Virus record (IMG/VR): IMGVR_UViG_3300018063_000029
Location: 1-39,391 of that record
Length of the DNA: 39,391 nt
Reading direction: 5' to 3' (one strand)
Source of the DNA: a virus
Part shown: piece after piece, positions 1 through 39,391 of the stretch
How the letters are laid out: every line of letters starts with the position of its first letter
Position numbering within the stretch: position 1 is the first letter of the stretch
The notes under the pieces: model-generated
What the model was told of the DNA's origin: nothing
Seen by the model: only the letters and a program-made list of their open reading frames with translations
Databases searched by the model: none
Translations under genes and position numbers: made by a program

Positions 1-138
1 CGCCGTTGGGCTCTTCGCCGTGCTGCTACTCGTCTCGGGGTCGGAGCAGTGCGCCTGCGCTTCCTTGAGCGTCAGGCCTGTCTTGATCGTGCGGCGACGT
101 GGATAGGCGTCCTTGTAGAACCGGACGACGTGGTACAT
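1..138 (-). CDS. small phage protein, truncated by window edge
   Basis: The frame begins with ATG at 138 and stays open to base 1, giving 46 residues that start MYHVVRFYKDAYPRRRT and include EAQAHCSDPETSSST. This resembles a small, widespread phage protein of unknown function with a conserved EAQxHCxDPETSS segment. The ATG overlaps the stop of the upstream leftward gene in an ATGA arrangement, so the two are translationally coupled. Joining base 1 to base 39391 does not give the expected family C-terminus, so the gene is treated as cut by the window. No function is assigned. Confidence 0.7.
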   Translation of the reverse strand, partial: MYHVVRFYKDAYPRRRTIKTGLTLKEAQAHCSDPETSSSTAKSPTA

Positions 139-467
139 CAGTCCTCCAGTCCTTCGCGCGCATCCGCGAGCGCTTCGGTTTCGGTTGAGAACGGGCCGTA
201 AGGCTCACCGTCAGGCAGGCAGCCCGGGAAGCATGACCACCAGTACCAGCCGCCCGTGATGTCTTCCTCCGCCACGATCGCATCGAGCATCGCCTCACGC
301 GTCTTGCTGTTCATCGTCGCAAGGCGAAACGCGTGACGCTTCATGTACTCGTGGCACAGGTCCTCGTCACGCTCGGCCACTTCGTGCGCCGTTAGCTGGA
401 AGGTTTCGATGTCCGGTAGTGCGTGCGGATCGCTCTCACGCTTCGGGTCGCTGTAGTGCTGCGCCAT
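138..467 (-). CDS. hypothetical protein, 109 aa, Trp-rich C-terminal half
   Basis: This leftward gene begins MAQHYSDPKRESDP. Its acidic N-terminal half ends near an EAMLDAIVAEED helix, followed by GGWYWWSCFPGCLPDGEPYG and a short helical tail. The C-terminal half looks like a compact aromatic domain of a type seen in small phage early proteins, but no function is known to me. ATG at 467 overlaps the upstream TGA, and the downstream gene overlaps its own stop, so it is the middle member of a tightly packed three-gene set. A GTG at 470 is an alternative start adding one residue. Confidence 0.72.
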   Translation of the reverse strand: MAQHYSDPKRESDPHALPDIETFQLTAHEVAERDEDLCHEYMKRHAFRLATMNSKTREAMLDAIVAEEDITGGWYWWSCFPGCLPDGEPYGPFSTETEALADAREGLED

Positions 468-649
468 CACGCCACCGTCCTAGCGCGCACGTTCGCGCCC
501 GGGACGCAGGCGCGGCGGAAGCGCTCTTCGTCAAACGTGGGGTTGTCGTCGCGGAATAGGTCAACAAACGACTGTTCGACCGCGGTATGTTGCGGACTGT
601 CGTACCGCTGTGTGATCCGTGCCGCCTTCTCGTAGTCTTTCTTGGACAT
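467..649 (-). CDS. hypothetical protein, 60 aa, first gene of the leftward set
   Basis: The protein runs from MSKKDYEKAARITQRYDS to GANVRARTVA. It is short, charged and probably helical, and I do not recognise its family. The start at 649 is chosen because a GGAGG ribosome site lies just upstream on the minus strand. Longer readings into the upstream region are Arg/Ala-rich and look non-coding. It faces the divergent intergenic region, so its promoter should lie between here and about 900. Confidence 0.68.
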   Translation of the reverse strand: MSKKDYEKAARITQRYDSPQHTAVEQSFVDLFRDDNPTFDEERFRRACVPGANVRARTVA

Positions 650-695
650 GGGCTCTTGGCCTCCGTCTCGGTTGTTGGCGGCTTGATTGCCGCAT

Positions 696-719
696 GCCAG
701 CCAGCACATGCAAGCCAGC
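696..719. repeat. dispersed GCCAGC motif, copy i
   Basis: GCCAGCCAGC is followed after four bases by GCAAGCCAGC. On the minus strand this gives a GCTTGC element next to TGCTGGC, the same composition as the integrase promoter region. I could not find a convincing -10 element beside it. It lies upstream of the leftward gene that starts at 649. Confidence 0.45.
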
Positions 720-815
720 GGCCACCGCGTCGCACCGCTCGCGTGTTGAACGCGCGTGCGCGCGCGACCCGCCGCGAGCGGCAATCGTGCACCGATTCGT
801 TGCGAACTTGCCGGA

Positions 816-833
816 GCTGGCAAGCCTGCAAGC
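816..833. repeat. dispersed motif, copy j
   Basis: GCTGGCAAGC is immediately followed by CTGCAAGC. This is a weaker relative of the dispersed motif, located in the divergent gap. It is kept because of its position near the other copies, but alone it could be chance. Confidence 0.3.
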
Positions 834-898
834 AGCGGGTGTTATGTCGGCTGGTTGACGTCGCTTCGCGCGCCCCTACGTGAGAGCCGAGCACCCGC

Positions 899-942
899 AC
901 CGGTCTCTTGGACCGGTAGGGGGTGGCATCAGCTGCCGCCCC
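899..942. terminator. two adjacent hairpins in the divergent region
   Basis: ACCGGTC (899-905) pairs perfectly with GACCGGT (911-917) around a five-base loop. Two bases later GGGGTGGCA (920-928) pairs with TGCCGCCCC (934-942) around another five-base loop, with one G-T wobble. There is no T-run on either strand. They could be transcription terminators, an operator, or secondary structure near an origin. Only the structure is certain. Confidence 0.4.
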
Positions 943-1155
943 TCGAGCAGGTCACCCCTTGCTGCGCGCGTGGCCCTAACCCTGTGATCTGCCTACGGTT
1001 TCCCCCTGCACCCCCTTCCGACGAGCGCGCGCGGCGCGCGCGTGCGTCCCCCGAGGCCGGGAGGGGGCTTGTCGATGCCTGGGCCCCGGTGGGTGCGCTT
1101 TGGGTCCTACCGCTCCAGGCGGGGGAAAAGGCGGACACGCGAGCCTCTATGGCAG

Positions 1156-1175
1156 GCCAGCCAGCGCCTGCTTGC
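1156..1175 (+). repeat. dispersed GCCAGC motif, copy k, at the late promoter
   Basis: GCCAGCCAGC (1156-1165) is followed by GCCTGCTTGC (1166-1175), which runs into the TTGCAC -35 element of the predicted late promoter. The stretch GCTTGCACGA is identical to that at the leftward promoter near 35640, where another copy of the motif occupies the same position. Confidence 0.5.
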
Positions 1176-1201
1176 ACGAGTGCGCATGCATCTGCTAGGA
1201 T
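1172..1201 (+). promoter_or_regulatory. predicted promoter of the rightward late operon
   Basis: A TTGCAC element (1172-1177) and a TAGGAT element (1196-1201) are separated by 18 bases and preceded by CTGC as an extended -10. The expected start is about 17 bases before the ATG at 1225, leaving room for the GGGGAG ribosome site. It shares the GCTTGCACGA and CTGCTA-GAT features with the predicted leftward promoter at 35615-35643. It is a prediction from sequence only. Confidence 0.5.
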
Positions 1202-1224
1202 AGGAATGTGGGGAGCGCTGCCGC

Positions 1225-1689
1225 ATGAAGCCGGCTACCGGACGACCCGGACGGGAGGTCGCCTTGAGCGCCTCCCATGCTCCCCCACCGCCAGCGGGGT
1301 ACGAGCCCGGGAAGCTTGACGGCTCGATCAGGAAGTACCTCGCGGTCTGCGAGCGCACCATCCGCCACGCCGAGTCCCTCGGGACTCAGGTGTCCGCCTA
1401 CCTCAAGCGCCTAGCGGGCGCACCCGCCGGCAACGATGGGGCCATGGCTGACGCGAACCAGGCGACGATCCTGCTCGAGCGTCTGACCAAGGCCGGCCTC
1501 AACATGGTGAAGGCGACGGACGAGCTGACGCGCCTGCGCTCGTTCCTCGCTGGCGGCCCGGATTCTCGCCCCGACCTCACCATCAGGGGCGAGATCGAGC
1601 TGCGGGGGATCATCCTCGCGGCCGTTCGCGACATGGGCTGGAGCATCATGGACGCGAAGGGGAAGCCCATCGAGATCGAGGCGGCATGA
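1225..1689 (+). CDS. first gene of the late operon, helical protein of unknown function, 154 aa
   Basis: The protein has a Pro-rich leader (about residues 1-30), then long predicted helices rich in Leu, Ala and Lys with KYLAVCERTIRHAE and ILLERLTKAGLNMVKATDEL, and a short C-terminal segment ending IEIEAA. It could be a packaging-associated or terminase small subunit-like protein, since it is helical and first in the operon, but it is far from TerL and I see no helix-turn-helix. A GGGGAG site precedes the ATG, and its stop overlaps the next ATG (ATGA). Confidence 0.75.
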   Translation: MKPATGRPGREVALSASHAPPPPAGYEPGKLDGSIRKYLAVCERTIRHAESLGTQVSAYLKRLAGAPAGNDGAMADANQATILLERLTKAGLNMVKATDELTRLRSFLAGGPDSRPDLTIRGEIELRGIILAAVRDMGWSIMDAKGKPIEIEAA

Positions 1690-9586: not shown

Positions 9587-9855
9587 TGCCCCGGACCATC
9601 GATCAGGCGCGCAAGGCCCAGGCCCGCGAGCAGAAGCGGGTGCAGGGGATCGCAACGGATCAGGTGCGGCGCGACGGCTACGTGCGTTCGCCCGGCTTCG
9701 AGCCCGCCGCGCGCGCGGGCACGCGCTACACGCCCGAGAACCTGCGCCCACAGCCGGCGGGCTCGGGCCGCATGAGCGGCGAGGCGGACACCGACGAAGT
9801 ACGGCGGCGCACCAAGAAGGGCGTCGTCATCGACAACTCCGTCTTCGGACGTTGA
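9586..9855 (+). CDS. small basic hypothetical protein, 89 aa
   Basis: The N-terminal part is a basic helix (IDQARKAQAREQKRVQG) and the rest is Arg/Gly-rich with RYTPENLRPQPAG and a final KKGVVIDNSVFGR. No family is recognised. The high net positive charge would suit contact with packaged DNA. Its ATG overlaps the previous stop by one base. Confidence 0.7.
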   Translation: MPRTIDQARKAQAREQKRVQGIATDQVRRDGYVRSPGFEPAARAGTRYTPENLRPQPAGSGRMSGEADTDEVRRRTKKGVVIDNSVFGR

Positions 9856-9866
9856 GAGGAGACGCC

Positions 9867-10421
9867 ATGCCGAACACCTACAAGGGCGGGGCCGGGCCCG
9901 GCCCGAACACCGACGGAACGCGGCCGGGCTACGCCGGGCACGGAAAGCCGTCGCTCGGCTTCGACGTCCGGCCGGAGCACAGCCATCTCGAGCACTTCAC
10001 GGAGGAGAGGTTCCTGCGCGAGGGCCACAACATCCGCTGGCCAGGTTGGGCGGGCCCGGGGCCAATCGGAGGCGGCTCGGAGGACCCGGGCGGGCTCGGG
10101 CGGCGGCCGGCCCAAGGCGACCCCAGCGACTACGGCGACGTGGCGGAATACGTGAAGCCGCGACGGATCGGGGCGCCTGACGTGCGCCGGCCTCTCCGCG
10201 AGGCGGGCTTCACGGCGGAAGACGCCAACCGGCATGTTCGCCTTGCTCGACGGGGCCGGCTCGAGTTTCCCGAGGGGGACCGCATCATGTGGCGTCGACC
10301 GAGCGGGGAGGCATCCGCAATGGGTGTGCAAAGCCCTGCGGCGACGGCCGCGCTCCAGGGCGTGCAGACGCGCTGGCAGGCCCGCAGAGACGCGCGACGC
10401 ATCAAGAAGGAGTCGAAATGA
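9867..10421 (+). CDS. hypothetical protein with EHxxLxHFxxExFLREGHN motif, 184 aa
   Basis: The start is set at ATG 9867, six bases after a GAGGAG site. A TTG five codons earlier is unlikely. After a Gly/Pro-rich leader, residues about 26-57 read KPSLGFDVRPEHSHLEHFTE and ERFLREGHNIRW, which is closely matched near the start of the next gene. The middle is Gly/Pro-rich and the C-terminus is a basic helix (WQARRDARRIKKESK). The two genes appear to share a small module by duplication. A virion or assembly role is inferred from location. Confidence 0.75.
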   Translation: MPNTYKGGAGPGPNTDGTRPGYAGHGKPSLGFDVRPEHSHLEHFTEERFLREGHNIRWPGWAGPGPIGGGSEDPGGLGRRPAQGDPSDYGDVAEYVKPRRIGAPDVRRPLREAGFTAEDANRHVRLARRGRLEFPEGDRIMWRRPSGEASAMGVQSPAATAALQGVQTRWQARRDARRIKKESK

Positions 10422-10951
10422 GCAAGCCTAGTCTCGGGTTCACCAGCACCCCGGAGCATGCATACCTAGGGCACTTCAAGCAGGAGAAGTTCTTGCGCGA
10501 GGGTCACAATGTCGGCCCCGTGCGAGCTGCGAAACTCCAACGGCGGATCGACACGCTCGGCGCTCGCGCCCGAGGCGAAGACGTGGTGGCTGCGCGCGGC
10601 GCGGGCACGGCCGCCGTGCGAGAGGCGCGCACCGCCGCGAAGGCGGGGCGCCGAGCAGCGGCGACCGGCGAGCATCCGGTTATCGCGGCGCGGGCGGCGG
10701 CGCGCGGCGAGGTCCGCTCGGCTCGGCTACAGGGCAAGGCTGACGTGCTGTCGGCCCGGGCCCGCGGTGGGGATGTGAAGGCGGCTCGGCAGGCAGCGAA
10801 GGCCGGTGTGAAAACTGCGAAGACGACCCGCAGGGAGGCCGTCACGGTGGCACGCGCGAACCCCGAGTCCGCGCGCAGTGAGCGCCAGGCGCGTCGAGGC
10901 GCCCGGATCGAGAAGCGCATCGGCCGCCTCCAGAAGCGACTCGGGAACTGA
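10418..10951 (+). CDS. Ala/Arg-rich basic protein with shared N-terminal motif and internal repeat, 177 aa
   Basis: ATG at 10418 overlaps the previous stop (ATGA). An upstream extension is a shadow. Residues 3-33 (KPSLGFTSTPEHAYLGHFKQ then EKFLREGHN) repeat the motif of the previous gene. The rest is a highly basic Ala/Arg/Lys helix with an internal duplication: GARARGEDVVAARGAG matches SARARGGDVKAARQAA about 70 residues later. The composition recalls histone H1-like or DNA-condensing proteins, so a packaged DNA-binding protein is plausible but unproven. Confidence 0.75.
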   Translation: MSKPSLGFTSTPEHAYLGHFKQEKFLREGHNVGPVRAAKLQRRIDTLGARARGEDVVAARGAGTAAVREARTAAKAGRRAAATGEHPVIAARAAARGEVRSARLQGKADVLSARARGGDVKAARQAAKAGVKTAKTTRREAVTVARANPESARSERQARRGARIEKRIGRLQKRLGN

Positions 10952-12898: not shown

Positions 12899-13858
12899 AT
12901 GGCCTATTCGTGGGACTTCGACGCCCCTACCGGGACGTTCAAGAATTTCCAGCTCTCCAGTGAGCTGTACGAGACGGCGCTCGAGAACAGCGTCGTCATG
13001 GCTCACGTCGATGTGGAGCAGTCGTTCGGGAAGAACAAGGGCGACACGTTCAACCTGACCCGCTTCACCCACATCGCCGAGCCCGCCAATGCCGAGCTGA
13101 GCGAGCTGCTCCCGATTCCCGAGGTGCAGTTCTCGCTCTCGACCAGCGCGATCACCGTGAAGGAGTACGGCGTGGCCGTGCCCTACACGGGCAAGCTCGA
13201 GCTGCTCTCGAAGTACAACATCGAGAACGCAGTGCAGCGCACCCTGATGGAGCAGAAGAGGCTCGTGCTCGACTCCGTCGGACTCACGCAGTTCAAGAGC
13301 ACGAACGTGAAGTACGTGCCGACCGCCGCCACCACGGGGGTCATCACGTACAACGGCACGCCTTCGGGCACGGCCGTGGCTGACCTGTCCTACTTCCACA
13401 TCGAGGACATCAGCCAGAACATGTACGACGATCTTCGCGTCCCGTACGCGGACGGTGACCAGTACGTCGCCATCTTTCGGGCGAAGACCGTCACCACCAT
13501 CCGGCGGGATTCTCAGTTCATCGCCTGGAATCAGATGAACAACGCTGGCGCCAAGGCAAAGGGCATGGTTGGGGTGATCGAGCGGCTCAAGATCATCGAG
13601 ACGAACCACGCCTCGGCTGGCGCTCTCCCGAACGTCGGCAGCAACAGCTTCGGTCCTGGTGTCGTGTTCGGTCGCGACGCCGTGCTCATGCTCGAGGTCG
13701 AGACGCCGCATCTTCGCGCGGCTCTGCCCAGCAACTTCGGTCGCTTCAAGTCTATCTGCTGGTACGCCCTCTTCGGCATGGGTCTGATCTACACGGGACC
13801 GACGACCCAGGCGACCTCACGCGGTGTGAGCCGCGTGGTCCACGTCACCTCGGCGTAA
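12899..13858 (+). CDS. major capsid protein
   Basis: The 319-residue protein begins MAYSWDFDAPTGTFKNFQLS, a capsid N-arm signature I know from HK97-fold phage capsid proteins of the N4-gp56-like type. It continues with a beta region, EYGVAVPYTG (about residues 89-98), FKSTNVKYVP (132-141), an IEDISQNMYDDLRV helix and a C-terminal GVVFGRDAVLMLEVETPHLR with WYALFGMGLIYTGP. It follows the scaffold and precedes a decoration-like gene. An intact paralogue lies on the opposite strand at 30855-32219, and an N-arm fragment at 27507-27794. Confidence 0.93.
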   Translation: MAYSWDFDAPTGTFKNFQLSSELYETALENSVVMAHVDVEQSFGKNKGDTFNLTRFTHIAEPANAELSELLPIPEVQFSLSTSAITVKEYGVAVPYTGKLELLSKYNIENAVQRTLMEQKRLVLDSVGLTQFKSTNVKYVPTAATTGVITYNGTPSGTAVADLSYFHIEDISQNMYDDLRVPYADGDQYVAIFRAKTVTTIRRDSQFIAWNQMNNAGAKAKGMVGVIERLKIIETNHASAGALPNVGSNSFGPGVVFGRDAVLMLEVETPHLRAALPSNFGRFKSICWYALFGMGLIYTGPTTQATSRGVSRVVHVTSA

Positions 13859-26194: not shown

Positions 26195-26200
26195 GCCTGT

Positions 26201-26224
26201 GCTTGCCACTGCTGGCATGCTGGC
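26201..26224 (+). repeat. dispersed motif, copy h, in the integrase promoter
   Basis: GCTTGCCACTGCTGGC is followed by ATGCTGGC. The TTGCCA is also the predicted -35 of the integrase promoter, so the motif lies across -35 and spacer. The related copy at 696-719 has the same elements in a different order. Confidence 0.45.
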
Positions 26225-26231
26225 GTATCCT
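26203..26231 (+). promoter_or_regulatory. predicted integrase promoter
   Basis: TTGCCA (26203-26208) and TATCCT (26226-26231) are separated by 17 bases, and the integrase ATG lies 19 bases beyond. The element starts just outside the tRNA-like attP core. The spacer is made of GCTGGC repeats. Prediction from sequence only. Confidence 0.45.
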
Positions 26232-26249
26232 CGTGGTGGGAGGACCCCC

Positions 26250-27137
26250 ATGAACGAGTACACCGGGCACGACGGGCAACGGCAGAACTGGAAGGGGCCA
26301 CAACCCCAGTCGGCGACGATCGGCGAGGGCCTTAGCCTTGTCCTGGACGACTACACAGCGAACGGAAGGCACAGCCGCGCCGACGCTGAGCGCCGGATCA
26401 GAAAGCATCTGCTACGGCGGCTGCCCAGCGACCTCGAGCTCACCCGCCTGACGATCGCGGACCTGCTCCGTTACGCCGGGGAGAGGCGGGGGGAGGGAGC
26501 ATCCGCAGCTTCCGTCAACCGGGAAGTGGCCCTCCTGCGGCGCGCCTGCACGCTAGCCGGGGTCGCCTGGCCGGCGCTGCGCTGGCGCAAGCTCCAAGAG
26601 CGGTCGCCCCGGGCGGGCTTCTTCGAGCGCGCCCAGCTTGACGCAGTGCTCGCCCGGCTGCCGCCGCCCGTCGCCGCGGTCGTGCAATTCTTGCACTTTA
26701 CGGGCTGGCGGAAACGCGAGGCGTTCACCCTCCGCTGGAGCCAGGTGGACTTCGACCGCGGCGAGGTCACGCTGCTCGCCGGCACGACGAAGACGGGCGA
26801 GGGGCGGGTCTGGCCGATGTTTCCGCAGCTCAGGGCGCTGCTCGAGGGGCAGGCGGCGGGGAGGAGGGGGGAGTACGTCTTCCACCGGGACGGCGTGCCG
26901 ATCCGCAGCATCTACGCCGTGTGGAATCGCGTGTGCCGGGCGGCCGGCGTCCCGGGCCGCTTCCTCCATGACTTCCGGCGGACGGCGGCGCGGAACCTGA
27001 TCGAGGCGGGCGTGGACAAGCAGGTCGCGATGCAGCTCCTGGGCCACAAGACGCCCTCGATCTTCGACCGCTATCGGATCGTGGACGGGCGCAACCTGCG
27101 CGACGCCGCCGAGAAGCTGGGGAAGGCGCTAGGCTAG
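26250..27137 (+). CDS. int: tyrosine recombinase (phage integrase), 295 aa
   Basis: The enzyme would insert the phage into, and excise it from, the host tRNA-Sec gene. A core-binding helical domain (about residues 20-110) precedes the catalytic domain. All expected catalytic positions are visible: Arg154 (TGWRKREA), Lys181 (GTTKTGEGR), His240 and Arg243 (FLHDFRRT), His266 (LLGHKTPS) and nucleophile Tyr275 (IFDRYRIV). ATG 26250 is preferred to upstream codons because GGGAGG lies six bases before it and earlier codons run into attP. The gene ends four bases into the convergent gene on the other strand. Confidence 0.93.
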   Translation: MNEYTGHDGQRQNWKGPQPQSATIGEGLSLVLDDYTANGRHSRADAERRIRKHLLRRLPSDLELTRLTIADLLRYAGERRGEGASAASVNREVALLRRACTLAGVAWPALRWRKLQERSPRAGFFERAQLDAVLARLPPPVAAVVQFLHFTGWRKREAFTLRWSQVDFDRGEVTLLAGTTKTGEGRVWPMFPQLRALLEGQAAGRRGEYVFHRDGVPIRSIYAVWNRVCRAAGVPGRFLHDFRRTAARNLIEAGVDKQVAMQLLGHKTPSIFDRYRIVDGRNLRDAAEKLGKALG

Positions 27138-27506: not shown

Positions 27507-27794
27507 CTACTCGTCCTCTGCGGGGCACGGCCCGAGGTGGAACTGCGGCCGGTGCTTGTACCACCACCAATCGATTCGCGCGCGCAGCCGGCGCCACAGC
27601 GGGATCGGCGGATTACAGTCGCGGCACGTCATGCCCGACATGCCACGATGCCCGTGGGCGTAGTGGTAGGTGCGCGAGCTGGCTTGGAACGCGCGCTGAG
27701 CCTCCGCGTCTTGACGCAGCATCTCGTGGTGGATGATATCCGAGAGGCGAGCATTCTTGTACGTCCCGGTCGGCGCGTCGAACGTCCAGCTCAT
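27507..27794 (-). CDS. small protein starting with the major-capsid N-arm motif, 95 aa
   Basis: The protein begins MSWTFDAPTGTYKNARLSD, matching the phage's own major capsid N-terminus (WDFDAPTGTFKN) and the capsid paralogue at 30855-32219 (WVFDAPSGTYRN). At DNA level CGGGACGT and AAGAAT in this stretch are shared with the capsid gene. After about 30 residues the similarity ends. The remainder has a CRDC pair, a Trp-rich basic helix (RLRARIDWWWYKHRPQF) and an acidic end. ATG overlaps the stop of the zinc-ribbon gene upstream (ATGA). An alternative GTG start at 27872 would displace that gene. Function is unknown; a capsid-docking or decoy peptide is a hypothesis. Confidence 0.68.
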   Translation of the reverse strand: MSWTFDAPTGTYKNARLSDIIHHEMLRQDAEAQRAFQASSRTYHYAHGHRGMSGMTCRDCNPPIPLWRRLRARIDWWWYKHRPQFHLGPCPAEDE

Positions 27795-28671: not shown

Positions 28672-28814
28672 TCGTCCTCCTCCATCAGGCGGCGCCGCCA
28701 GCCCTCGGTCCCGAAAAAGTCCTCCCCATCGAGCTCATCGAGTTTTCGGAGGAGCTTCCGGAGGTACTCGCGAAGATAGTATGCGGTGAATTTTCCTACC
28801 TCGTGGTGCTTCAT
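28668..28814 (-). CDS. small helical phage protein, 48 aa
   Basis: The peptide begins MKHHEVGKFTAYYLREYLRK and contains DELDGEDFFGTEGWRRR, a segment I associate with small phage proteins of unknown function found near replication genes. It overlaps the exonuclease stop and the following gene by four bases each. Confidence 0.68.
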   Translation of the reverse strand: MKHHEVGKFTAYYLREYLRKLLRKLDELDGEDFFGTEGWRRRLMEEDE

Positions 28815-29389
28815 GCCGCCTCCGGCATCTTCACCAGGTCAACCAGCCTGGTGAGCAGGTCGGCCGCCATGCGCGCGTCGCCGAGCGCGTGGTGCGCGGC
28901 CTGCTTCTCGATCCCCAGCTCCTCGACCACCTGGAGAAGCCCGCCCATCCCGGCGCGTAGCCGGCCGGCGAGACAGAGGTAGCGGACGGTGTTCATGGTG
29001 CAGACCGTCCTGTGCGAGAAGATCGCCTCGTACCGGGCCGCGTTCCCGGTGATGCGGGCGAGCCGCTTGAGGTAACCGACGTCAAAGCCGGTGTTGTGCC
29101 CTCCGAGGAGCACTTGGTCGCGGCCGAAGACGCCCTGGCAGAAGCGGACGAACTCCTGCCAGACGAGCGCCGGCCCGAGGCCGCTCTCCCGGATGTGCGC
29201 CTCGGTGAAGCCGTTGACCTTGAGGGCACCAGGGTCGAGCCGGCCCGGATGGTCGTTCACTAGGCTGTGGAACTCGGGCTCGGGGAGGCGCCCCTTCTCG
29301 CTGTCCCACACGCAGGCGCCCAGCGAGATGAGCGCGTCCGTCGCCGGGTCGAGGCCGCCGGTCTCGGTGTCGAAGATGACGTACTTCAT
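28811..29389 (-). CDS. DnaQ-like 3'-5' exonuclease, 192 aa
   Basis: The protein is a DEDDh-type exonuclease of the DnaQ/RNase T fold. Exo I is FDTETGG (Asp7, Glu9), Exo II is GHNTGFDVGYL (Asp103), and Exo III is HHALGDARMAADLL (His167, Asp171). These enzymes remove nucleotides from DNA or RNA ends for repair, proofreading or nucleotide recycling. The polymerase in this operon has its own exonuclease domain, so this enzyme probably acts separately. It overlaps both neighbouring genes by four bases. Confidence 0.9.
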   Translation of the reverse strand: MKYVIFDTETGGLDPATDALISLGACVWDSEKGRLPEPEFHSLVNDHPGRLDPGALKVNGFTEAHIRESGLGPALVWQEFVRFCQGVFGRDQVLLGGHNTGFDVGYLKRLARITGNAARYEAIFSHRTVCTMNTVRYLCLAGRLRAGMGGLLQVVEELGIEKQAAHHALGDARMAADLLTRLVDLVKMPEAA

Positions 29390-29871
29390 CGCGCACCGCC
29401 CGTCCGCGATCCGATGACGGTCCGTGTCTCGCTGCTCTCCTCCAGCGGGCGGAAGATGTCGTCTAGCTCTGCCCGCGTCGGGGCGTGGGTGGTGGGGGGC
29501 GGGGGGTCCTGCTGCGTCAGCTCCACGATCAGCCGCGCGGCGGCGCCTGGCGTCGGCCGGTCATCCACGAGGTTGCCCGTCGCCTTCGCGTCGAGCAGGA
29601 TCGCCATGCAAGCCGCAGCGTGCGCGACATGTGGCTGCCCGCTCTCCGGGTCTAGCTCCTCACCGTCATGCGCGGCGAGTATGTGGCGCATGGCTGCGGC
29701 AGCGTAGATCGACCAGCGCACCTTCTTCTCACGCCAGTTGTACTTTCCGTACTTGGCGGCTCCGAGCGCCATGACCCGGCTCAGGTAAAGCAATGCCGCT
29801 GGCGGAACAAGATCGAGCGGCGGCTTCTTGAGGCCGAACAAGTCCTTGGGGTTGATGCCCTGCTCGCTCAT
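29386..29871 (-). CDS. dATP/dGTP diphosphohydrolase-domain protein, 161 aa
   Basis: Residues about 14-95 match the N-terminal dATP/dGTP diphosphohydrolase domain family common in phages: LDLVPPAALLYLSRVMALGA, AKYGKYNWREKKVRW, a central AAMRHILAAHDGEELDPES and HVAHAAACMAILLDA. The helical all-alpha NTP hydrolase would hydrolyse purine dNTPs and shape the nucleotide pool. The C-terminal 65 residues are Pro/Thr-rich with an acidic ELDDIFRPLEES. The start at 29871 follows a GGAGG site. Longer frames overlap the cupin gene. Confidence 0.82.
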   Translation of the reverse strand: MSEQGINPKDLFGLKKPPLDLVPPAALLYLSRVMALGAAKYGKYNWREKKVRWSIYAAAAMRHILAAHDGEELDPESGQPHVAHAAACMAILLDAKATGNLVDDRPTPGAAARLIVELTQQDPPPPTTHAPTRAELDDIFRPLEESSETRTVIGSRTGGAR

Positions 29872-30254
29872 GCAACCTCCTGGCGGCCGACCGCAAGCCT
29901 CACGAAGCGGAGTTCGGCGGGCAGGTACTCTTGCCAGTACCGAGCCCACGGTCCGCGGAATGAGAGGACCCAAGTACGGCCGCCGCTCACGACCTTGTGG
30001 AACGTCTCACGGCGCGTGATGACCGGGCGCCAGCTCGGCATGTGCATCTCCGTCGTGCCCCCCAGGTGGTGCTCGACAAGCCGGCCGCGCAGTACCCACG
30101 AGACCGAATCGAAGGCGTGGCTGTGGTACGCGTTGCGGCTCCCGTTCTCGAAGCAGAGCAGCACGACCGAGCACAGGCGCTTGGCCTCGAGCAGCCAGAG
30201 GCCCCACACGGTCGAAGCGGGGCCGCCGTCCTTCCCGTAACGGAAGAGGCTCAT
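29868..30254 (-). CDS. cupin-like protein, 128 aa
   Basis: The motif AYHSHAFDSVSWVLRGRLVE has the cupin layout of His-x-His followed by a Glu/Trp/Gly turn, and a second part ETFHKVVSGGRTWVLSFRGP supplies a later His. A metal-binding beta-barrel is likely. Related phage cupins are uncharacterised. It sits between nucleotide-metabolism genes, so a sugar- or nucleotide-related role is possible. Confidence 0.75.
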   Translation of the reverse strand: MSLFRYGKDGGPASTVWGLWLLEAKRLCSVVLLCFENGSRNAYHSHAFDSVSWVLRGRLVEHHLGGTTEMHMPSWRPVITRRETFHKVVSGGRTWVLSFRGPWARYWQEYLPAELRFVRLAVGRQEVA

Positions 30255-30646
30255 GCGGCCCCCTGCGTGATGAGCCGGCGGGCCTCGCTCATCGAATGCG
30301 GAACCTGGCGCTCGACGGGCTCACAGCAGAAGAGTGTGTCCAGGAAGAAGTAGACCGGGATGCTGTTCCTGGTGGCGAACGCGACCTCGGCGTCGCCGCC
30401 GGCCGACGTGCCCGACATCCGGTACAGGGCATCGCAGCGGCGGATGCACTTGAAGTCGTACGCCAGCCACTGCTCATACGTCCTCGGGTGCATGATCTCG
30501 AGGCACAGCGCCTTCTCATGCGGGACGATGACGATGTACCCCCGCTCGATCAGCGTGTTGCCGACGTCCACGGCTCGGCGGATGTTGCCGATGGTGTCGC
30601 CGGTTGTGAGCGGGCCGCTCACGTAGATCAGGGTCGGTCGCTTCAT
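30251..30646 (-). CDS. nucleoside 2-deoxyribosyltransferase-like protein (DUF4406 type), 131 aa
   Basis: The N-terminus IYVSGPLTTGDTIGNIRRAV and following NTLIERGYIVIVPHEKALCL are the signature of the DUF4406/deoxyribosyltransferase-like family that binds nucleoside sugars. A later SGTSAGGDAEVAFATRNSIP carries the conserved Gly-Ala-Glu segment. These proteins are thought to exchange or remove bases from deoxynucleosides or bind ADP-ribose-like ligands. Its neighbours also act on nucleotides. Confidence 0.82.
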   Translation of the reverse strand: MKRPTLIYVSGPLTTGDTIGNIRRAVDVGNTLIERGYIVIVPHEKALCLEIMHPRTYEQWLAYDFKCIRRCDALYRMSGTSAGGDAEVAFATRNSIPVYFFLDTLFCCEPVERQVPHSMSEARRLITQGAA

Positions 30647-30858
30647 GCCGCCCTCCGTGCAACCTTGCGCTCGTGGTCCTGGGCCGTCACGTCGAGGAAG
30701 TCGGCTACTCCCACCACATACGCGACGATGTACCCGCGCTTCCGCATCCTTGGCACCAGCCAGCGCAGGTGCCGCGCAGCGTTGTGGATCGCGTCGTTCA
30801 GTGTGCGCTCGCCGCGGAGTGCCTTACGATTCGGGATACTCGACTTTCGCTTCTTCAT
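30643..30858 (-). CDS. small basic protein, 71 aa
   Basis: It begins MKKRKSSIPNRKALRGERTL and is basic throughout, with a helical middle (NAARHLRWLVPRMRKRGY) and a short hydrophobic stretch (IVAYVVGVADFLDV). The start at 30858 overlaps the stop of the capsid paralogue (ATGA), so the two are coupled. It might bind nucleic acid or act with that protein, which is inference. Confidence 0.65.
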   Translation of the reverse strand: MKKRKSSIPNRKALRGERTLNDAIHNAARHLRWLVPRMRKRGYIVAYVVGVADFLDVTAQDHERKVARRAA

Positions 30859-32219
30859 CCTGCCCTCCGGCACGTCGAGCAATCATCTTCGTCGTACCCG
30901 AACGTGCCCTTGTGAACGTTGCTGCCGTGAATGCTGCTGTGAATGCTGCTGTGCCCGCCGGCCACCAGGATCGCGAGCCCGTAGCGGGCCTTGTGCATCC
31001 CGGTCGCGTACGCGATGCGGGGCGCGGCCTTGATGCGCCGGCCGAGAGCGGCTGCGCGCTCCCGCAGCGTCGGCGGGACGGGCGCGCTCGTGACGTGGAT
31101 CGCCCGCGTGTCGTACAGGAGCTTCGCCGCCATGATCGCGTACCAGGCGACCGCCTTGTCCCGGCCGTAGTTCGCGGGGACCGCGCACCGCAGCTCGGGC
31201 TCGAGCGCCTCGACGGCGGCGACGGCCTCCTCCCCGAAGATGACCGCTTCCCCGAGGCAGCCGCTCTTGCCGACCATGGGGAGAACGTTCTCGTTCGTCG
31301 CAATTAGGCGCACCTGACCGACCTTCCCGATCTCGCCGAGCATCGGCTCGCGGTACTGCGCATAGGCGGCCAGCGGGATGAAACGCGCCCGGTCCTGCCT
31401 GACGTGGGTGAATGCGCGAGCCTGCGCGACCATCACGAGGTACACTCCCTCGATCAGCGGCGTGTGGTACGTCGTGGTGAGGTAGTCAGCGAGCAGCTCG
31501 ATGTCCTCGGCGATCAGGTTCCGGGTTGCGATGATGGGCCGGCGCCGATCGCGAAAGAACGGGAGACGCGCCAGGAGCCCCTTAAAGCGGGGCTTCGTAA
31601 GGTCCGTCCCGAGGTGCCAGTCCGGTCCGACCCCGAGCGGCGTGAGCGAGTGGAGTCGGACGAGCGGGACGTACTTGAGCGGCGTGGACTTGAGCGCTCC
31701 GCCGATCATCGCGTTGTAGGTGCGCGTGAGCAGGCCGACGAGCGCGCTCTGCACCGGGCCGGGGGACTTCGGGTCCAAGTCTTCGTTCAGGCTGGTGAAC
31801 GGGACCGCCGTCCCGTACTCGCGCAGCTTCACGTCGACCGTGGTGACCTTGACCTCGGTCTCGGGTAGTCGCTGGCCCTCGTGCAGCTCCACAAGCTGCG
31901 AGGTCTCCACGTCGATCCGGCAAACCGTCTGGCAGCGCGCGCCGGGCGGGGCGACGATCCAGCGGACGAGCGAGAAGAAGACGCTGAGCTTCCGCGCCTT
32001 CTCGCGCAGGCGATCCGCGAGGCGCGGATTCCTGTACGTCCCGGACGGCGCGTCGAAGACCCAGGCGTCAGGGTCGGGCGGCGGCTCCGTAGCCTTGAAG
32101 AAGACGTCCACCGGCCCGATCCATCGCCGGCTACCGGCGACACCATCTGACGTTGGCTTGCTGGCTCGGCGAACGCTCTTCGCCCGCGCGCACGTTACCT
32201 TGCGACGCTTCGCCTTCAT
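30855..32219 (-). CDS. second major-capsid-protein homologue in the replication operon, 454 aa
   Basis: Residues 53-379 match the phage's own capsid protein from end to end: WVFDAPSGTYRN (capsid WDFDAPTGTFKN), REYGTAVPFT (KEYGVAVPYT), LKSTPLKYVP (FKSTNVKYVP), VIFGEEAVAAVEALEPELR (VVFGRDAVLMLEVETPHLR), AVPANYGRDKAVAWYA (ALPSNFGRFKSICWYA) and IHVTSA (VHVTSA). A basic 52-residue N-extension and a 75-residue C-extension with HSSIHSSIHGSNVH and CSTC are added. ATG 32219 overlaps the upstream stop, and the stop overlaps the next ATG. The intact frame and coupling argue for a working protein. Its function is unknown; see findings. Confidence 0.88.
   Translation of the reverse strand: MKAKRRKVTCARAKSVRRASKPTSDGVAGSRRWIGPVDVFFKATEPPPDPDAWVFDAPSGTYRNPRLADRLREKARKLSVFFSLVRWIVAPPGARCQTVCRIDVETSQLVELHEGQRLPETEVKVTTVDVKLREYGTAVPFTSLNEDLDPKSPGPVQSALVGLLTRTYNAMIGGALKSTPLKYVPLVRLHSLTPLGVGPDWHLGTDLTKPRFKGLLARLPFFRDRRRPIIATRNLIAEDIELLADYLTTTYHTPLIEGVYLVMVAQARAFTHVRQDRARFIPLAAYAQYREPMLGEIGKVGQVRLIATNENVLPMVGKSGCLGEAVIFGEEAVAAVEALEPELRCAVPANYGRDKAVAWYAIMAAKLLYDTRAIHVTSAPVPPTLRERAAALGRRIKAAPRIAYATGMHKARYGLAILVAGGHSSIHSSIHGSNVHKGTFGYDEDDCSTCRRAG
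30927..30950. repeat. two exact 12-bp tandem repeats in the capsid paralogue's tail
   Basis: GTGAATGCTGCT occurs twice in tandem, preceded by a related 15-base unit from 30912. On the coding strand it gives the repeated SSIH segment of the His-rich C-terminal tail. Being in frame and exact, it looks like a young expansion. Confidence 0.75.
32151..32165 (-). repeat. dispersed motif, copy b (GCCAGCAAGCCAACG)
   Basis: This 15-mer is identical to the copy at 35091-35105. Here it lies in the codons of the disordered N-terminal extension of the capsid paralogue (residues about 19-23), outside the capsid-homologous part. Confidence 0.6.
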
Positions 32220-32587
32220 GCCGGCACCCCCGCCTCTCGCGCCTGCTCCAGGCACTGGCCCAGCGCGACGTAGGCCACGGTGCTCGCGGGCCGCGCGTAC
32301 GCTAGGTCGGACTGGTCGAGGAAGTTCGTGGCGACGGCATTGTACCGCCGGAGTGCGCCCTCCATCTTCTGCACCTCGGGCACGATGACGGCCCGCTCGG
32401 TGCAGAAGACCTGCACCAGCTTGCCCGTCCCCTGCTGGCGGCTGCTCTTCTCGATCCGCCCAAGCACGCCGTTCTCCACGACGTCCGTCACACGCAGCGC
32501 CTGCATGTACGTCGTGCTGCCCGAGCGCACCGGGTAGACGAGGAGCGCGCCGATGCGAATCTCCCGGTCGAACATGTCTCGCTTCAT
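32216..32587 (-). CDS. hypothetical protein, 123 aa
   Basis: The N-terminal half has strands DREIRIGALLVYPVRSGSTT and ALRVTDVVENGVLGRIEKSS, reminiscent of small SH3-like barrel proteins in phages. The C-terminal half is helical (ASTVAYVALGQCLEQAREAG). No catalytic motif is visible. It overlaps both neighbours by four bases and lies directly upstream of the capsid paralogue. Confidence 0.7.
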   Translation of the reverse strand: MKRDMFDREIRIGALLVYPVRSGSTTYMQALRVTDVVENGVLGRIEKSSRQQGTGKLVQVFCTERAVIVPEVQKMEGALRRYNAVATNFLDQSDLAYARPASTVAYVALGQCLEQAREAGVPA

Positions 32588-32916
32588 GCTGCCTCCTTCA
32601 CAATCGCGTCGAGGATGCGGACGCATAGACGGCCACTCCCGCCGGCCGCGTCATCGAAGAGGCTGACGAACCGCGTAGCCCACGGTGGCATCCGCAGCGC
32701 CTCGCCGGCATGATCGAAGCAGGTCTTGCTGTAGTCGCAGACGAACACGTCGCGGAGCAAGCCGTATTGGCCGCCGAGGATCGCGTACCCCGTTGCCTCT
32801 ACGAGGGCGCAGCCCTGGATGCACTGGCTGCGGAACCGGCGCCGGCTGTTGCGCTCGAAGAACGCGCGCACCCGACGCAGGCTGGGGAAGTCACCGAGTT
32901 TCTTACGAACGGTCAT
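32584..32916 (-). CDS. hypothetical protein, 110 aa
   Basis: The protein begins MTVRKKLGDFPSLRRVRAFF with a basic helical half and then a CIQGCALVEATGYAILGGQY segment and VCDYSKTCFDHAGEALRMPP. Several cysteines suggest metal binding or disulfides but show no known pattern. ATG 32916 is chosen for its GGAGG site. Longer frames run through the homing endonuclease. Confidence 0.68.
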   Translation of the reverse strand: MTVRKKLGDFPSLRRVRAFFERNSRRRFRSQCIQGCALVEATGYAILGGQYGLLRDVFVCDYSKTCFDHAGEALRMPPWATRFVSLFDDAAGGSGRLCVRILDAIVKEAA

Positions 32917-33236
32917 GCTGCCTCCTTTAGTAGTTGTCGGATACGGGCACTGCGGCGCTTCCCCATCAGAGGAAGAAGCTGGCGCATGAGCGCGACAGCG
33001 CTTCGCCCAGCCTTGGCCGCACGATAGGTGGGCTTCCAGCCGGGACGCTGGTGCGACGGTGAATGGGTCCACCGCGCGCGGGCACCCATCAAAGCAGCGG
33101 CGCGCTCGACGACATCACGGTCTGTCATGTTCAGATAAATCTGTGGCGTTGCGGGGGTCCGACGAACGTTGCATCGCGTGAAGCAGCCCTCCCCTTCGAG
33201 AAGGCCTGCGAGCCAGAGAAGATCGCCGCGTCTCAT
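32913..33236 (-). CDS. LAGLIDADG-type homing endonuclease domain, 107 aa
   Basis: The N-terminal LLWLAGLLEGEGCFTRC matches a LAGLIDADG motif (LAGLxEGEG) with the catalytic acid at the Glu of EGEG. The C-terminal half is basic and helical with RSAVALMRQLLPLMGKRRSA. With only one motif, the protein would act as a dimer. It lies directly after the DNA polymerase and overlaps its stop by four bases, a spot where homing endonucleases often insert. No intron in the polymerase is seen. Confidence 0.8.
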   Translation of the reverse strand: MRRGDLLWLAGLLEGEGCFTRCNVRRTPATPQIYLNMTDRDVVERAAALMGARARWTHSPSHQRPGWKPTYRAAKAGRSAVALMRQLLPLMGKRRSARIRQLLKEAA

Positions 33237-35089
33237 GCCGCCATCTTCTCGACCCGCCCATAGTTGGTGCCGGCGCTGATCTCGACGCGCGGGCGAAGTC
33301 GGAAGTCGAAGCCCGTCATCATGTGCTGAGCCAGCCTCGCGACCTTGGCCGCGTTCTCCTCCGGCGCCTCGATAACGACCTCGTCGTGGACTTGAAGGAG
33401 CATCGCAGCGCCGAGCCGCTCGAGGGGCTGCTCCAGACGCTGCATCGCCGTCCGCATCATCTCCCCGACGCCGCCCTGGATGAGCCGATTCCAGGCGACG
33501 AACGGCGGCGTGAGATTCCCGTCGAAGTGGACGACGCGCCCCGTCCAGAGCCGGATGCAGCCGACCTGCTGGGCCCGCTCCTCCAGCTCCTTCATCATGT
33601 GCTTGACGCCGGGGCAGAGGTCGAAGAACTCATCGACGACGCGCGGGCCTCGCTGGCCCTTGTAGGCGCGCCACTCGGCGTCGCCCCACGTCTCGCACTT
33701 CGAGCCGAACTCGGCCTCCAGCTTCGCGACCGACTTGAACGGCCAATCATGCATCTCGGACAGCTTACGGCCGCGCGCACCGTACTGCACCGCAAGCCAG
33801 CATATCTTCGCGCCCTGGCGGTCGGTGCCCGTCTTCTGCGCGAGCTCAGCGTACAGGTCGCGGCCGGCGTGATACGCCTCGGCCAGCGACTCATCGCCGG
33901 AGTAGTGGCCGCCCAACCACATCTCCGCGCGCTCGTAGTCTCCAGCGAGAAGGGCGTGGCCCGGCCTCGCGACCACAAGCTCCCGGACGCGCATGAACCA
34001 GTCCGGGCTGCGCTTCGGAAGGTTCTGAAGGTTGGGCCGGGAGCACGATAGGCGCCCGCTCCGCGTGCCTCCACGATCCTGGGGGTCCCGCGTCAGATTC
34101 TGTTGGGGATGGACGACACCCTCAGCGTCCAGGGCCTCAAGGACGCCCTCATAATACGTCCCCTTCATCTTGCCGAGCTGCTTGTAGCTGATGATCTGCG
34201 CGGCGAGCGGATGGCCCGACCGGCGCAGCGTCTTGGCCTCCGCATCCTTCGTGCCGCACAGCCGCGTGACCTGTTGCCAGCTGCCGGGGTTGAACGCCGG
34301 CCCGGACTGCCGACGGATCGCCTCGAGTACCGCGAGCTGCTCAGCGGTGCAGCGCGTGATGCGCCGCTCGCACTCGGATCGATCGATCAGCAGTCCGCGC
34401 CGCTCGATCTTCGCGAGCAGGCGCGCGTAGTCGTACATCTCGGTCGCGAGCTGCGTGAGGTTCCATTCCTCCAGGTGCGGGCGGTACAGATTGCGGAGCG
34501 CGCGCGTATCGAGCACGTCACCGCAGGCGTAGTCCGCGACCTGCTCCGGCGTCAGCTCGGACATGTGCCCCATGAGCTGGCGGGCCGCCTTGAGCCGGGG
34601 GTGCAGGGCGCGCAGCATCTCGAGCAGCCGCGCCTTCTGCGCCGCCTTCTCACTGGCGCCCCTGAGGTACTTGCTGCCGAGTCCCTCCAGGGAGAAGGTC
34701 GGTTCGTTCTCGTTCGCGAGGAGCGCGTCGATGATCGTGTCTTCCTTGCGGATCGAATCGTCGTGGAGCAGCCGGCGGTAGAACCGCTCGTGCTCGACGG
34801 CGATCATCGGGCAGTCAAAGCGGATCATGTTGTGTCCGAGCAGTGTCACGCCCGGCCGCGTGATGGCGTCGAGCAGGGGGTCGAGCAGCCGCTCGGGCAG
34901 GTTGCGCCCGTTCTTGTGGCGGAAAGGGAAGTACGCCGCCTCCCCATCCGCCTCAACGGCAACGCCGAAGAGCCGGTCCCCTAGGTAGGGGCGCAGGCCG
35001 GTCGTCTCGAGGTCGACGCAGAGGTGCTCACACCTCGCTATCCTCACCATGGAGGACTCGTATTGGGCGTCAGTCGAGACGAGCGGCAT
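33233..35089 (-). CDS. family A DNA polymerase with 3'-5' exonuclease, 618 aa
   Basis: This is the phage replicative polymerase. The exonuclease domain has Asp26/Glu28 (CVDLETTG), Asp92 (HNMIRFDCP) and Tyr187/Asp191 (YACGDV). The polymerase domain has motif A GDYERAEM (Asp384), the O-helix RQGAKICWLAVQYG (Lys428, Leu432, Tyr436) and motif C QVHDEVVI (His568, Asp569, Glu570). The position equivalent to E. coli Phe762 is Leu432. ATG 35089 has no good ribosome site; instead a copy of the dispersed motif abuts it. ATG 35050 is an alternative start before the exonuclease motif. Confidence 0.93.
   Translation of the reverse strand: MPLVSTDAQYESSMVRIARCEHLCVDLETTGLRPYLGDRLFGVAVEADGEAAYFPFRHKNGRNLPERLLDPLLDAITRPGVTLLGHNMIRFDCPMIAVEHERFYRRLLHDDSIRKEDTIIDALLANENEPTFSLEGLGSKYLRGASEKAAQKARLLEMLRALHPRLKAARQLMGHMSELTPEQVADYACGDVLDTRALRNLYRPHLEEWNLTQLATEMYDYARLLAKIERRGLLIDRSECERRITRCTAEQLAVLEAIRRQSGPAFNPGSWQQVTRLCGTKDAEAKTLRRSGHPLAAQIISYKQLGKMKGTYYEGVLEALDAEGVVHPQQNLTRDPQDRGGTRSGRLSCSRPNLQNLPKRSPDWFMRVRELVVARPGHALLAGDYERAEMWLGGHYSGDESLAEAYHAGRDLYAELAQKTGTDRQGAKICWLAVQYGARGRKLSEMHDWPFKSVAKLEAEFGSKCETWGDAEWRAYKGQRGPRVVDEFFDLCPGVKHMMKELEERAQQVGCIRLWTGRVVHFDGNLTPPFVAWNRLIQGGVGEMMRTAMQRLEQPLERLGAAMLLQVHDEVVIEAPEENAAKVARLAQHMMTGFDFRLRPRVEISAGTNYGRVEKMAA
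33792..33801. repeat. partial dispersed motif inside the polymerase gene
   Basis: GCAAGCCAGC matches ten bases of the motif inside the O-helix codons. It may be chance, since it is inside a conserved coding segment. Confidence 0.2.
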
Positions 35090-35090
35090 G

Positions 35091-35105
35091 CGTTGGCTTG
35101 CTGGC
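35091..35105 (-). repeat. dispersed motif, copy c, directly before the polymerase ATG
   Basis: GCCAGCAAGCCAACG on the minus strand is identical over 15 bases to copy b and ends two bases before the ATG at 35089, where a ribosome site would be expected. It fills most of the 23-base gap between the SSB-like gene and the polymerase. Confidence 0.65.
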
Positions 35106-35112
35106 ACCCGGC

Positions 35113-35565
35113 CTAGGCTGAGAGCAGCTCTTTCACCTTGGGGAACGTCTTGGTCTTCCCCTTCGCCGCCTCGTTCTTGATGAGGAGCTGGCACTCGGCC
35201 CCGATGAAGGCGCTCTTCTTGATCCCCTCACCGTCGTCCGGCACGGGCTTGCCGAGCGCCTCACACGTCGGCGGGAACTTCGACTTCTCGTGCAGCGAGT
35301 AGCTCGTGTACCAGGCGAGGAGCCCCTCGGCCTCGCGCCCCTTGATCGCGAAGAGCCACACGATCTGGTCGCGGGGCTCGCCGTTGTTGAAAGGGTTGGC
35401 CGACGTCTTGTGCTTCATCTCCACCAGGACGCCCGGGACGACCCCGTTCTTCTGCGTGCCGGTGAATGTGCTGTCGCCGCCGGCCGAAGCCTTGGCGGTG
35501 CCCACCACGTCGTCGGCGCCGGCAGGCTTGCCGGGCAGGGTGGCGGGCTCGGTCGGGATGCTCAT
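35113..35565 (-). CDS. single-stranded DNA-binding (OB-fold)-like protein, 150 aa
   Basis: The protein lies between the nuclease and the polymerase, the usual place of a phage SSB. It has strand-rich segments VVPGVLVEMKHKTSANPFNN, RDQIVWLFAIKGRE and a C-terminal AFIGAECQLLIKNEAAKGKT plus FPKVKELLSA that fit a five-strand OB barrel ending. The OB-fold call is from pattern and context, with no single diagnostic motif. GGAGGAAG precedes the ATG, and a strong promoter candidate lies about 50 bases further upstream. Confidence 0.65.
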   Translation of the reverse strand: MSIPTEPATLPGKPAGADDVVGTAKASAGGDSTFTGTQKNGVVPGVLVEMKHKTSANPFNNGEPRDQIVWLFAIKGREAEGLLAWYTSYSLHEKSKFPPTCEALGKPVPDDGEGIKKSAFIGAECQLLIKNEAAKGKTKTFPKVKELLSA

Positions 35566-38202: not shown

Positions 38203-39391
38203 CAGTCGGCCTCCAGCGAGCCGCCCTCGTAGGGGCCGTGCATGTGCGCCTTCACGGCGTCCTTCCCGAGCCCGGTCTTCTTCCGCACCGCCGCCTGCGT
38301 TACCTTCTCGCCGGCCTCGCGCAGCTCGCTGATCGCCTTGTGGACCGCCTCTCGGTTCGTGTTGGAGACGCGGTCGTTGCGGTTGACCGCCGTACCGGGG
38401 TCCACCAAGGTGTAGAGGCCGGCGCTGTACCGGAGCGTCAGCTCGATCTCCTCGCCCAGGCGGGAGATGGTCTTCACACGGCGCAGGTCCTCGGAGCCGG
38501 GCTGGTAGAGGAGCGCGCAGATGTCCATGTCGCCCGAGAGCGCCGTGCTCCCCCGGCCGGCGCGGGACACATCGTCCCGGTTGTCCTTCGACTTCGAGCT
38601 GTGCCGTACGAACACGGTACCGACCGCGCGGCCCTTTGCGCCCTGGAACGGGTTGAGGATGGAGACGACACCGGCCGCGTTCTCGCCCTCTCCCTCGACG
38701 CCGGCTAGGCGGGAGAGCGTATCCACGAAGAGAAGCTGCGCACCGACCGTCGTGCAGTAGTCGAGCAGCCCGCCGACGACCTCGGCCCACAGGCGACCGA
38801 ACGTGTCGGACTGCGTGAGCAGGTGCAGGTCGGGCTCGCCACGGATGCCGGCGCGCTCGAGCGTCTTCTCCAGGGACAGGCCGACCTGCTCGGTGTAGAG
38901 GACGACGGGCGTCTTGCGGACGGAGCATCCAAGGAAGGGCTCGCCCCGCAGGACGGAGCGGATCATCTGCCCGTTGAAAGTGGTCTTCCCCTTCTTCACC
39001 TCCCCGACGATCTCGGTGAAGCAGGAGGGGGCGACAAGGTGCTGGACGATCCAGTCCTCGCGTAGCTCGACCTTGAAGTCGGACGCCCGCCGGATCAGCG
39101 AGATGATGGGAGCCTGGCTGATGCTGGCTTGCTGGCTCCCTGGACGATCGTCTACCAGGGGGCCGGCGGTCCCGGGCTCCAGGGCGCGCTTCTCGCACGC
39201 CCGGTTCAGCTTCTCGGTGACGTGCTCGATCGTCCAAGGCTCGTGCGGGCGGCCGAGCGGGAGCTGGCGCGCCCAGCCGGCGAGGAGGCCGAGCGCGATG
39301 TCGTACGGGAGGTGGCGCGCGGCCCACCAGCTCAGGCGGGACAGCGTTTCCTCCTGGCTGCCCGACGTGCAACCCTGCGGATTCGCAAGAG
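38202..39391 (-). CDS. RepA/KaiC-type AAA ATPase (replication), 5' end outside the window
   Basis: The frame is open to the window edge (395 visible residues). Counting from the first visible codon, Walker A is GEVKKGKT (129-136) and Walker B is AQLLFVDTLSRL (Asp223). SLSGDMDICALLYQPGS and a winged-helix-like C-terminus (EKVTQAAVRKKTGLGKDAVK) follow. The N-terminal 70 residues (LSWWAARHLPYDIALGLLAG and PWTIEHVTEKLNRACEKR) resemble the helical primase C-terminal region that precedes such ATPases in primase-helicase fusions. It is the likely replicative helicase or loader. A motif copy lies in the linker near residue 88. Confidence 0.85.
   Translation of the reverse strand, partial: LANPQGCTSGSQEETLSRLSWWAARHLPYDIALGLLAGWARQLPLGRPHEPWTIEHVTEKLNRACEKRALEPGTAGPLVDDRPGSQQASISQAPIISLIRRASDFKVELREDWIVQHLVAPSCFTEIVGEVKKGKTTFNGQMIRSVLRGEPFLGCSVRKTPVVLYTEQVGLSLEKTLERAGIRGEPDLHLLTQSDTFGRLWAEVVGGLLDYCTTVGAQLLFVDTLSRLAGVEGEGENAAGVVSILNPFQGAKGRAVGTVFVRHSSKSKDNRDDVSRAGRGSTALSGDMDICALLYQPGSEDLRRVKTISRLGEEIELTLRYSAGLYTLVDPGTAVNRNDRVSNTNREAVHKAISELREAGEKVTQAAVRKKTGLGKDAVKAHMHGPYEGGSLEAD
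39118..39136 (-). repeat. dispersed motif, copy d (GCCAGCAAGCCAGC)
   Basis: The 14-mer at 39123-39136 (minus) equals copy a. Extended to 39118, fifteen bases also equal 5711-5725. It encodes the linker between the primase-like region and the ATPase domain. Confidence 0.6.

Follow-up and report, generated by a model that had tools for sequence, protein, structure and literature searches.

The DNA analysed here, which we call the window, is an IMG/VR viral record of 39,391 bases. Its plus strand encodes terminase, an SU10-type portal, a major capsid protein (MCP), and tail and lysis proteins. Its minus strand, from approximately 39.0 to 27.1 kb, encodes a family A DNA polymerase, exonucleases, a dATP/dGTP diphosphohydrolase and a DUF4406 protein. 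An integrase gene at 26199-27137 points to a temperate phage. Compared with the relative G002, approximately 6 kb that would separate the early operon from the start of the late genes is absent (window 1-1225 and 39000-39391), indicating that the record is probably an incomplete genome. We thus regard the window as, probably, the incomplete genome of a temperate phage. The genes considered here are:

12899-13858, plus strand: the phage's own MCP, 319 aa, encoded in the late operon 3' of the terminase and portal genes
27507-27794, minus strand: 95-aa ORF, the first approximately 28 aa of which match the MCP N-arm (MSWTFDAPTGTYKNARLSDIIHHEML) in a profile search, the rest being unrelated
28811-29389, minus strand: DnaQ/RNase T-like 3'-5' exonuclease, last gene of the ATGA chain
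29386-29871, minus strand: dATP/dGTP diphosphohydrolase, 85% identical in G002
30251-30646, minus strand: DUF4406/DUF7768 protein, nucleoside 2-deoxyribosyltransferase-like, at the downstream edge of a variable slot
30643-30858, minus strand: 71-aa basic orphan gene, the ATGA-overlapped downstream neighbour of PARA
30855-32219, minus strand: PARA, a diverged MCP paralogue of 454 aa with a predicted HK97 fold (from ORF, homology and model)
32216-32587, minus strand: 123-aa orphan gene, the ATGA-overlapped upstream neighbour of PARA
32913-33236, minus strand: LAGLIDADG-like ORF (LAGLLEGEG motif) directly after the polymerase, with a 45% homologue 3' of the MCP gene in G002
33233-35158, minus strand: family A DNA polymerase, first gene of the ATGA chain, with a provisional start

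The PARA reading frame starts with ATG at 32219 and ends with TGA at 30855. It is one of ten genes that run without a break from the polymerase to the DnaQ-like exonuclease, each overlapping the next by exactly 4 bp (ATGA; nine overlaps). The gene is thus found outside the late head operon with its terminase and portal genes, on the opposite strand and between polymerase and nucleotide genes. Both the placement in a replication operon opposite the late genes and the ATGA overlaps on either side of PARA had been pointed out in a preliminary description of this DNA, and both hold. In G002, three other small genes, also overlapping, are found between the polymerase and the DUF4406 gene, which makes the PARA site look like an accessory slot. 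A chimeric contig is unlikely, as G002 has homologues of the polymerase, DUF4406 and dATP/dGTP diphosphohydrolase genes around the slot in identical order. From its strand and neighbours only, PARA is predicted to be made, probably, alongside the replication proteins and before the late capsid genes. A scan for promoters and terminators gave nothing above shuffled sequences, and PADLOC gave no defence-related match for PARA or its neighbours. We also note that the dATP/dGTP diphosphohydrolase is encoded near the family A polymerase; among the genes of the window, which comes from an incomplete record, we recognised no PurZ.

PARA is a homologue of the N4-gp56 / PHROG 1357 type of MCP, similar over the full fold and with an HK97 fold in the predicted structure. 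A BLASTP comparison with the phage's own MCP gave 351 aligned columns, spanning the whole fold, with 27% identity (E=1e-31). PHROG 1357 (major head protein) matches both PARA (E=4e-10) and the MCP (E=3e-15), and NCBIfam TIGR04387 (N4-gp56 MCP) does the same at scores below its curated cut-off (E=3e-7 and E=5e-13, respectively). The profile of the MCP family scores PARA at 190.9 bits. The intact, 454-residue capsid homologue proposed for 30855-32219 is thereby confirmed, and the profile searches place PARA and the MCP in one family and not in another. The capsid motifs listed in the preliminary description are present in the order given there; their spacing differs, by an insert of 41 residues and a deletion of 11 residues.

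The AlphaFold2 model of PARA has an HK97-like core, mostly with pLDDT values of 70-91, and tails and an insert at about 40-45. The model of the MCP has an overall pLDDT of 69 and a pTM of 0.73. Both models, which the preliminary description had proposed to compare, match HK97-fold capsids. All Foldseek matches of PARA in the PDB are capsids or encapsulins, with E-values down to 1e-12. The best PDB neighbours of the two models are capsids of tailed phages (NF5, P-SCSP1u, GP4, N4 and Pan3) and encapsulins, and the top match of PARA in BFVD is an N4-gp56 MCP.

The coding signal of PARA is normal for this phage. GC content by codon position (0.66/0.49/0.89) and a codon adaptation index (CAI) of 0.70 equal the values of the phage core genes, whereas the CAI in the two shifted frames is 0.38 and 0.32. 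There is thus no sign in its GC3 (0.89) or CAI of an untranslated frame, which the preliminary description had named as an objection, and homology and codon usage led us to reject a chance ORF or an antisense shadow. Among columns that are at least 95% conserved in approximately 60 MCPs, here termed near-invariant, PARA keeps 27 of 38 residues (71%), compared with 22% in columns that are less than 50% conserved. It falls short of the retention seen in functional MCPs, as genuine diverged MCPs keep 30/34 to 34/34 of the near-invariant residues. We take the difference between 71% and 22% to mean that the fold is held by selection, with some capsid-specific constraints released. On these sequence criteria PARA is a selected gene, not debris.

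PARA can be divided into the following parts:

32070-32219, minus strand: basic N-terminal extension, aa 1-50, net charge +9, with aa 1-41 predicted to be disordered
31083-32069, minus strand: capsid-fold core, aa 51-379, with N-arm hairpin and helix, E-loop, spine helix, and A and P domains
31533-31655, minus strand: basic insertion of low confidence, aa 189-229, absent from all MCPs
30858-31082, minus strand: C-terminal extension, aa 380-454, basic, with five His and two Cys, mostly of low confidence

The three additions, an N-extension of 50 aa, an insert of 41 aa and a C-extension of approximately 74-75 aa, are each basic and mostly predicted to be disordered. The basic N-extension had been described before, and its net charge of +9 bears this out. 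Overall, PARA has a net charge of +21 and a pI of 9.8, compared with a median charge of -8 (range -20 to +3) in the MCP family. The 11-residue deletion is located just before the HVTSA terminus. PARA lacks both glycines of the GKxKG turn at the E-loop base (G44 is replaced by P and G48 by C), and also the near-invariant Y189 and W210. The best kept parts are the N-arm and the C-terminal block FG..A...PELR..P...GR.KAVAWY..HVTSA.

In a tree of 65 sequences, PARA is found on a branch of 2.2 changes per site (the median tip being 0.19) with no supported sister. The AU test rejected PARA as sister to the phage's own MCP (p=0.02); a placement next to the related MCPs as an entire clade was not rejected (p=0.57). 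A recent duplication of the phage's own MCP is therefore rejected, and with it the view of PARA as a simple duplicate; a deeper origin at the clade base, through a split that predates the phages of this clade, was not rejected. Based on these tests, PARA would be either an ancient paralogue or a gene acquired long ago from the wider MCP family. The best core identity, 39%, is with the MCP of locus L043, which is weak evidence given the long branch.

No orthologue of PARA was found in IMG/VR by an exact-peptide search, nor in phages or plasmids by tblastn. The preliminary description had proposed a profile search for a conserved location in early operons; a PARA orthologue was not found in the records searched. 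G002 and G006, relatives that include the polymerase region and have MCPs 67-69% identical to the one in the window, both lack PARA. The closest relative, L005 (83% MCP identity), is a 14-kb fragment of the late region, and the absence of PARA there is uninformative. Degenerate capsid motifs retrieved 398 relatives from IMG/VR; among the best 80 of the 398, identity to PARA peaks at 34%, and every one of the 80 is a single full MCP. One MCP copy was found in each of 22 larger records, many records being fragments, and a related MCP used as a query against GenBank phages matched 52 places in 52 records.

Other pieces of capsid sequence were also found. The N-arm in the ORF at 27507-27794 is complete and begins at the same residue as in MCPs. 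It scores 22.8 bits against the profile (E=5e-5), a value reached by none of the 3237 reported shuffles. The ORF contains seven His and three Cys, and over 51 nt its DNA is, by eye, nearer to the N-arm of PARA than to that of the MCP. No N-arm-only proteins were found among 34 other loci. G006 encodes, just upstream of its polymerase, a 70-aa ORF (L027 3731-3943, minus strand) that ends in a segment resembling the MCP A domain (HFSGEIGRIESVRFVCS). BLASTP of this ORF against 78 MCPs gave E=4e-5, a value reached by none of 2793 reported shuffles. A decayed PARA orthologue was considered and rejected for this fragment, which scores higher with ordinary MCPs than with PARA. We regard the N-arm ORF and the G006 fragment as leads, not as proof of a system. 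In an all-against-all BLASTP of the ORFs of the window, the only pair besides the capsid-related matches was 9852 with 10289, which is unrelated to the capsid. These adjoining late ORFs (9852-10421 and 10289-10951) have in common a repeated segment of approximately 30-45 aa (51-67% identity) that is repeated in relatives too.

Homing endonuclease-like ORFs are found around the capsid gene in this group. At approximately 3940-4690 of L008, the MCP gene is split after MAYSWD by approximately 0.7 kb with a LAGLIDADG ORF; the arrangement is intron-like, and no Rfam intron model matched. The LAGLIDADG-like ORFs at L006 7907-8320 and at 32913-33236 of the window are homologous, the former being located directly after the MCP gene and the latter directly after the polymerase, hinting at endonuclease-driven shuffling of capsid sequence.

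The closest described system is Ccm, the cos-phage capsid morphogenesis protein of the Staphylococcus satellite SaPIbov5, which has a capsid fold and 23% identity to the capsid protein (CP) of the helper phage (PMC6893505, PMC8569155, PMC5052747). Ccm occupies the pentamers of small capsids, its expression cuts the helper titre 1,000-10,000-fold, and escape mutations are found in the CP of the helper (PMC6893505, PMC8569155, PMC5052747). It was overlooked in the preliminary description, and the statement there that no described system with this arrangement was known misses it. Like Ccm, PARA is a diverged capsid-fold homologue of an MCP (27% identity), encoded outside a capsid operon and alongside an authentic MCP in the same cell. 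Unlike PARA, Ccm is borne by a satellite and acts on a helper; the PARA gene is part of a replication operon, and the phage that bears it encodes terminase, portal, MCP and tail proteins itself. PARA also differs in its basic N- and C-terminal extensions. To our knowledge, strongly basic tails are not a hallmark of Ccm.

With the N4-gp56 / PHROG 1357 MCPs, for which Ralstonia phage GP4, N4 and Pam1-type capsids are structural neighbours, PARA has in common the sequence family and the predicted fold. These MCPs are late structural proteins of approximately 310-320 aa, mostly acidic and found once per genome in the records checked, whereas PARA is encoded in an early operon, basic and 454 aa long. 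Phage capsid paralogues and an MCP-derived interferer of assembly in a satellite are thus already known. In the open-licence papers searched, we came across no autonomous phage whose replication operon encodes a basic MCP paralogue accompanied by a free N-arm protein. A paper on a "second major capsid protein" was rejected as precedent, as the phrase there means a neighbouring subunit and not a second gene.

Among the roles listed in the preliminary description, an assembly-directed one has the best precedent as a predicted role. We tentatively suggest that PARA may be a neofunctionalised capsid paralogue, placed in an accessory slot of the replication operon and acting on the capsid assembly of the phage itself or of a competitor. 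A copy of an N4-gp56-type MCP would have entered the slot between the polymerase and the DUF4406 gene long ago and there acquired basic tails and a basic loop, the fold being kept under selection. PARA would then bind the MCP via the retained contacts (N-arm, P domain and A-domain core), and the bound protein would enter, cap or nucleate shells. The changed E-loop turn and the bulky added tails would make it unable to form a normal mature lattice. The outcome could be that the phage's own assembly is delayed or redirected, or that competing phages or satellites whose capsids are related have their assembly poisoned. We infer early timing, MCP binding and the effect on assembly, and a Ccm-like mechanism would be the most likely.

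In HK97-type capsids, capsomeres contact one another through N-arms and P domains (PMC6813328, PMC8569155), and in SPP1 the N-terminus of the MCP binds the scaffold (PMC6813328). Given these roles of the N-arm, a protein that keeps it and has an altered E-loop and tails could enter, stall or redirect assembly. The second early ORF, which bears the MCP N-arm alone, also speaks for an assembly role. As the integrase suggests a temperate phage, exclusion of competitors would pay. It should be noted that a poison encoded within a phage must somehow spare its own particles, that no orthologue shows a conserved location and function, and that the strongly basic tails could mean binding of nucleic acid instead.

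This last point leads to an alternative to the assembly effector that we consider somewhat unlikely, namely that PARA acts outside virion biology. It would then form an oligomer or a small encapsulin-like shell inside the cell, or bind nucleic acid and work with the replication genes. The charge reversal to +21 in a family with a maximum of +3, distributed over N-extension, insert and C-extension, is consistent with this, as is the position in one ATGA chain between the polymerase and the nucleotide and exonuclease genes. Encapsulins, in which the HK97 fold is used outside virions, are among the Foldseek matches of PARA, but here Foldseek cannot tell encapsulins from capsids, and the MCP model matches an encapsulin too. 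The sequence relatives of PARA are phage MCPs, and it retains the N-arm and HVTSA terminus of the capsid family. An unsystematic look identified no cargo-loading motif.

More doubtful is an anti-defence decoy, in which PARA and the N-arm protein, made before the MCP, would occupy host sensors that detect capsids without triggering them. MCPs directly trigger CapRel-SJ46 and staphylococcal Thoeris (PMC9712102, PMC11312562), parts of the MCP are mimicked by two separate ORFs, and PARA is encoded in a variable slot. Against a decoy, it is the assembled hexamer that the Thoeris sensor recognises, our searches of the literature revealed no capsid decoy, and the PADLOC result above lends it no support.

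Slightly less probable still is that PARA is a functionless passenger, an MCP gene caught by recombination, perhaps carried along by the homing endonucleases often associated with capsid genes of this group. Such an origin would fit the LAGLIDADG ORFs, found close to the polymerase here and adjacent to or within the MCP genes of G002 and G004, the capsid-like fragment before the polymerase in G006 and the lack of a PARA orthologue in our searches. Approximately two substitutions per site without a stop or frameshift, the selective retention of invariant residues (71% vs 22%), host-like codon usage and the exact ATGA coupling argue against it. T4 gp24 is a vertex paralogue of gp23, a virion subunit encoded with the late head genes, and PARA resembles it as a second HK97-fold capsid paralogue in one phage. 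Such a minor or vertex subunit of the phage's own virion, with an odd gene placement, would agree with the fold and the retained N-arm and C-terminus, but is very unlikely in view of a gene in the opposite-strand replication operon, relatives (G002 and G006) that make capsids without PARA, the loss of the E-loop turn and the basic tails.

Combining the leads, it is conceivable, though we consider it unlikely, that an autonomous phage deploys early capsid mimics, the basic full-fold PARA and a free N-arm protein, before its MCP is made, poisoning related competitors or satellites or blinding capsid-sensing immunity; relatives may hold other capsid pieces in the operon. If PARA is instead a shell or DNA-binding protein outside the virion, it would represent a present-day capsid fold leaving virion duty with the parent gene still in the genome. 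If our preferred reading is true, that of an assembly-interfering MCP homologue encoded in the replication operon of a phage, autonomous phages too would be seen to reuse the capsid fold as an early effector, and PARA would offer a testable route to exclusion between phages, or between phages and satellites, or to evasion of capsid-sensing immunity.
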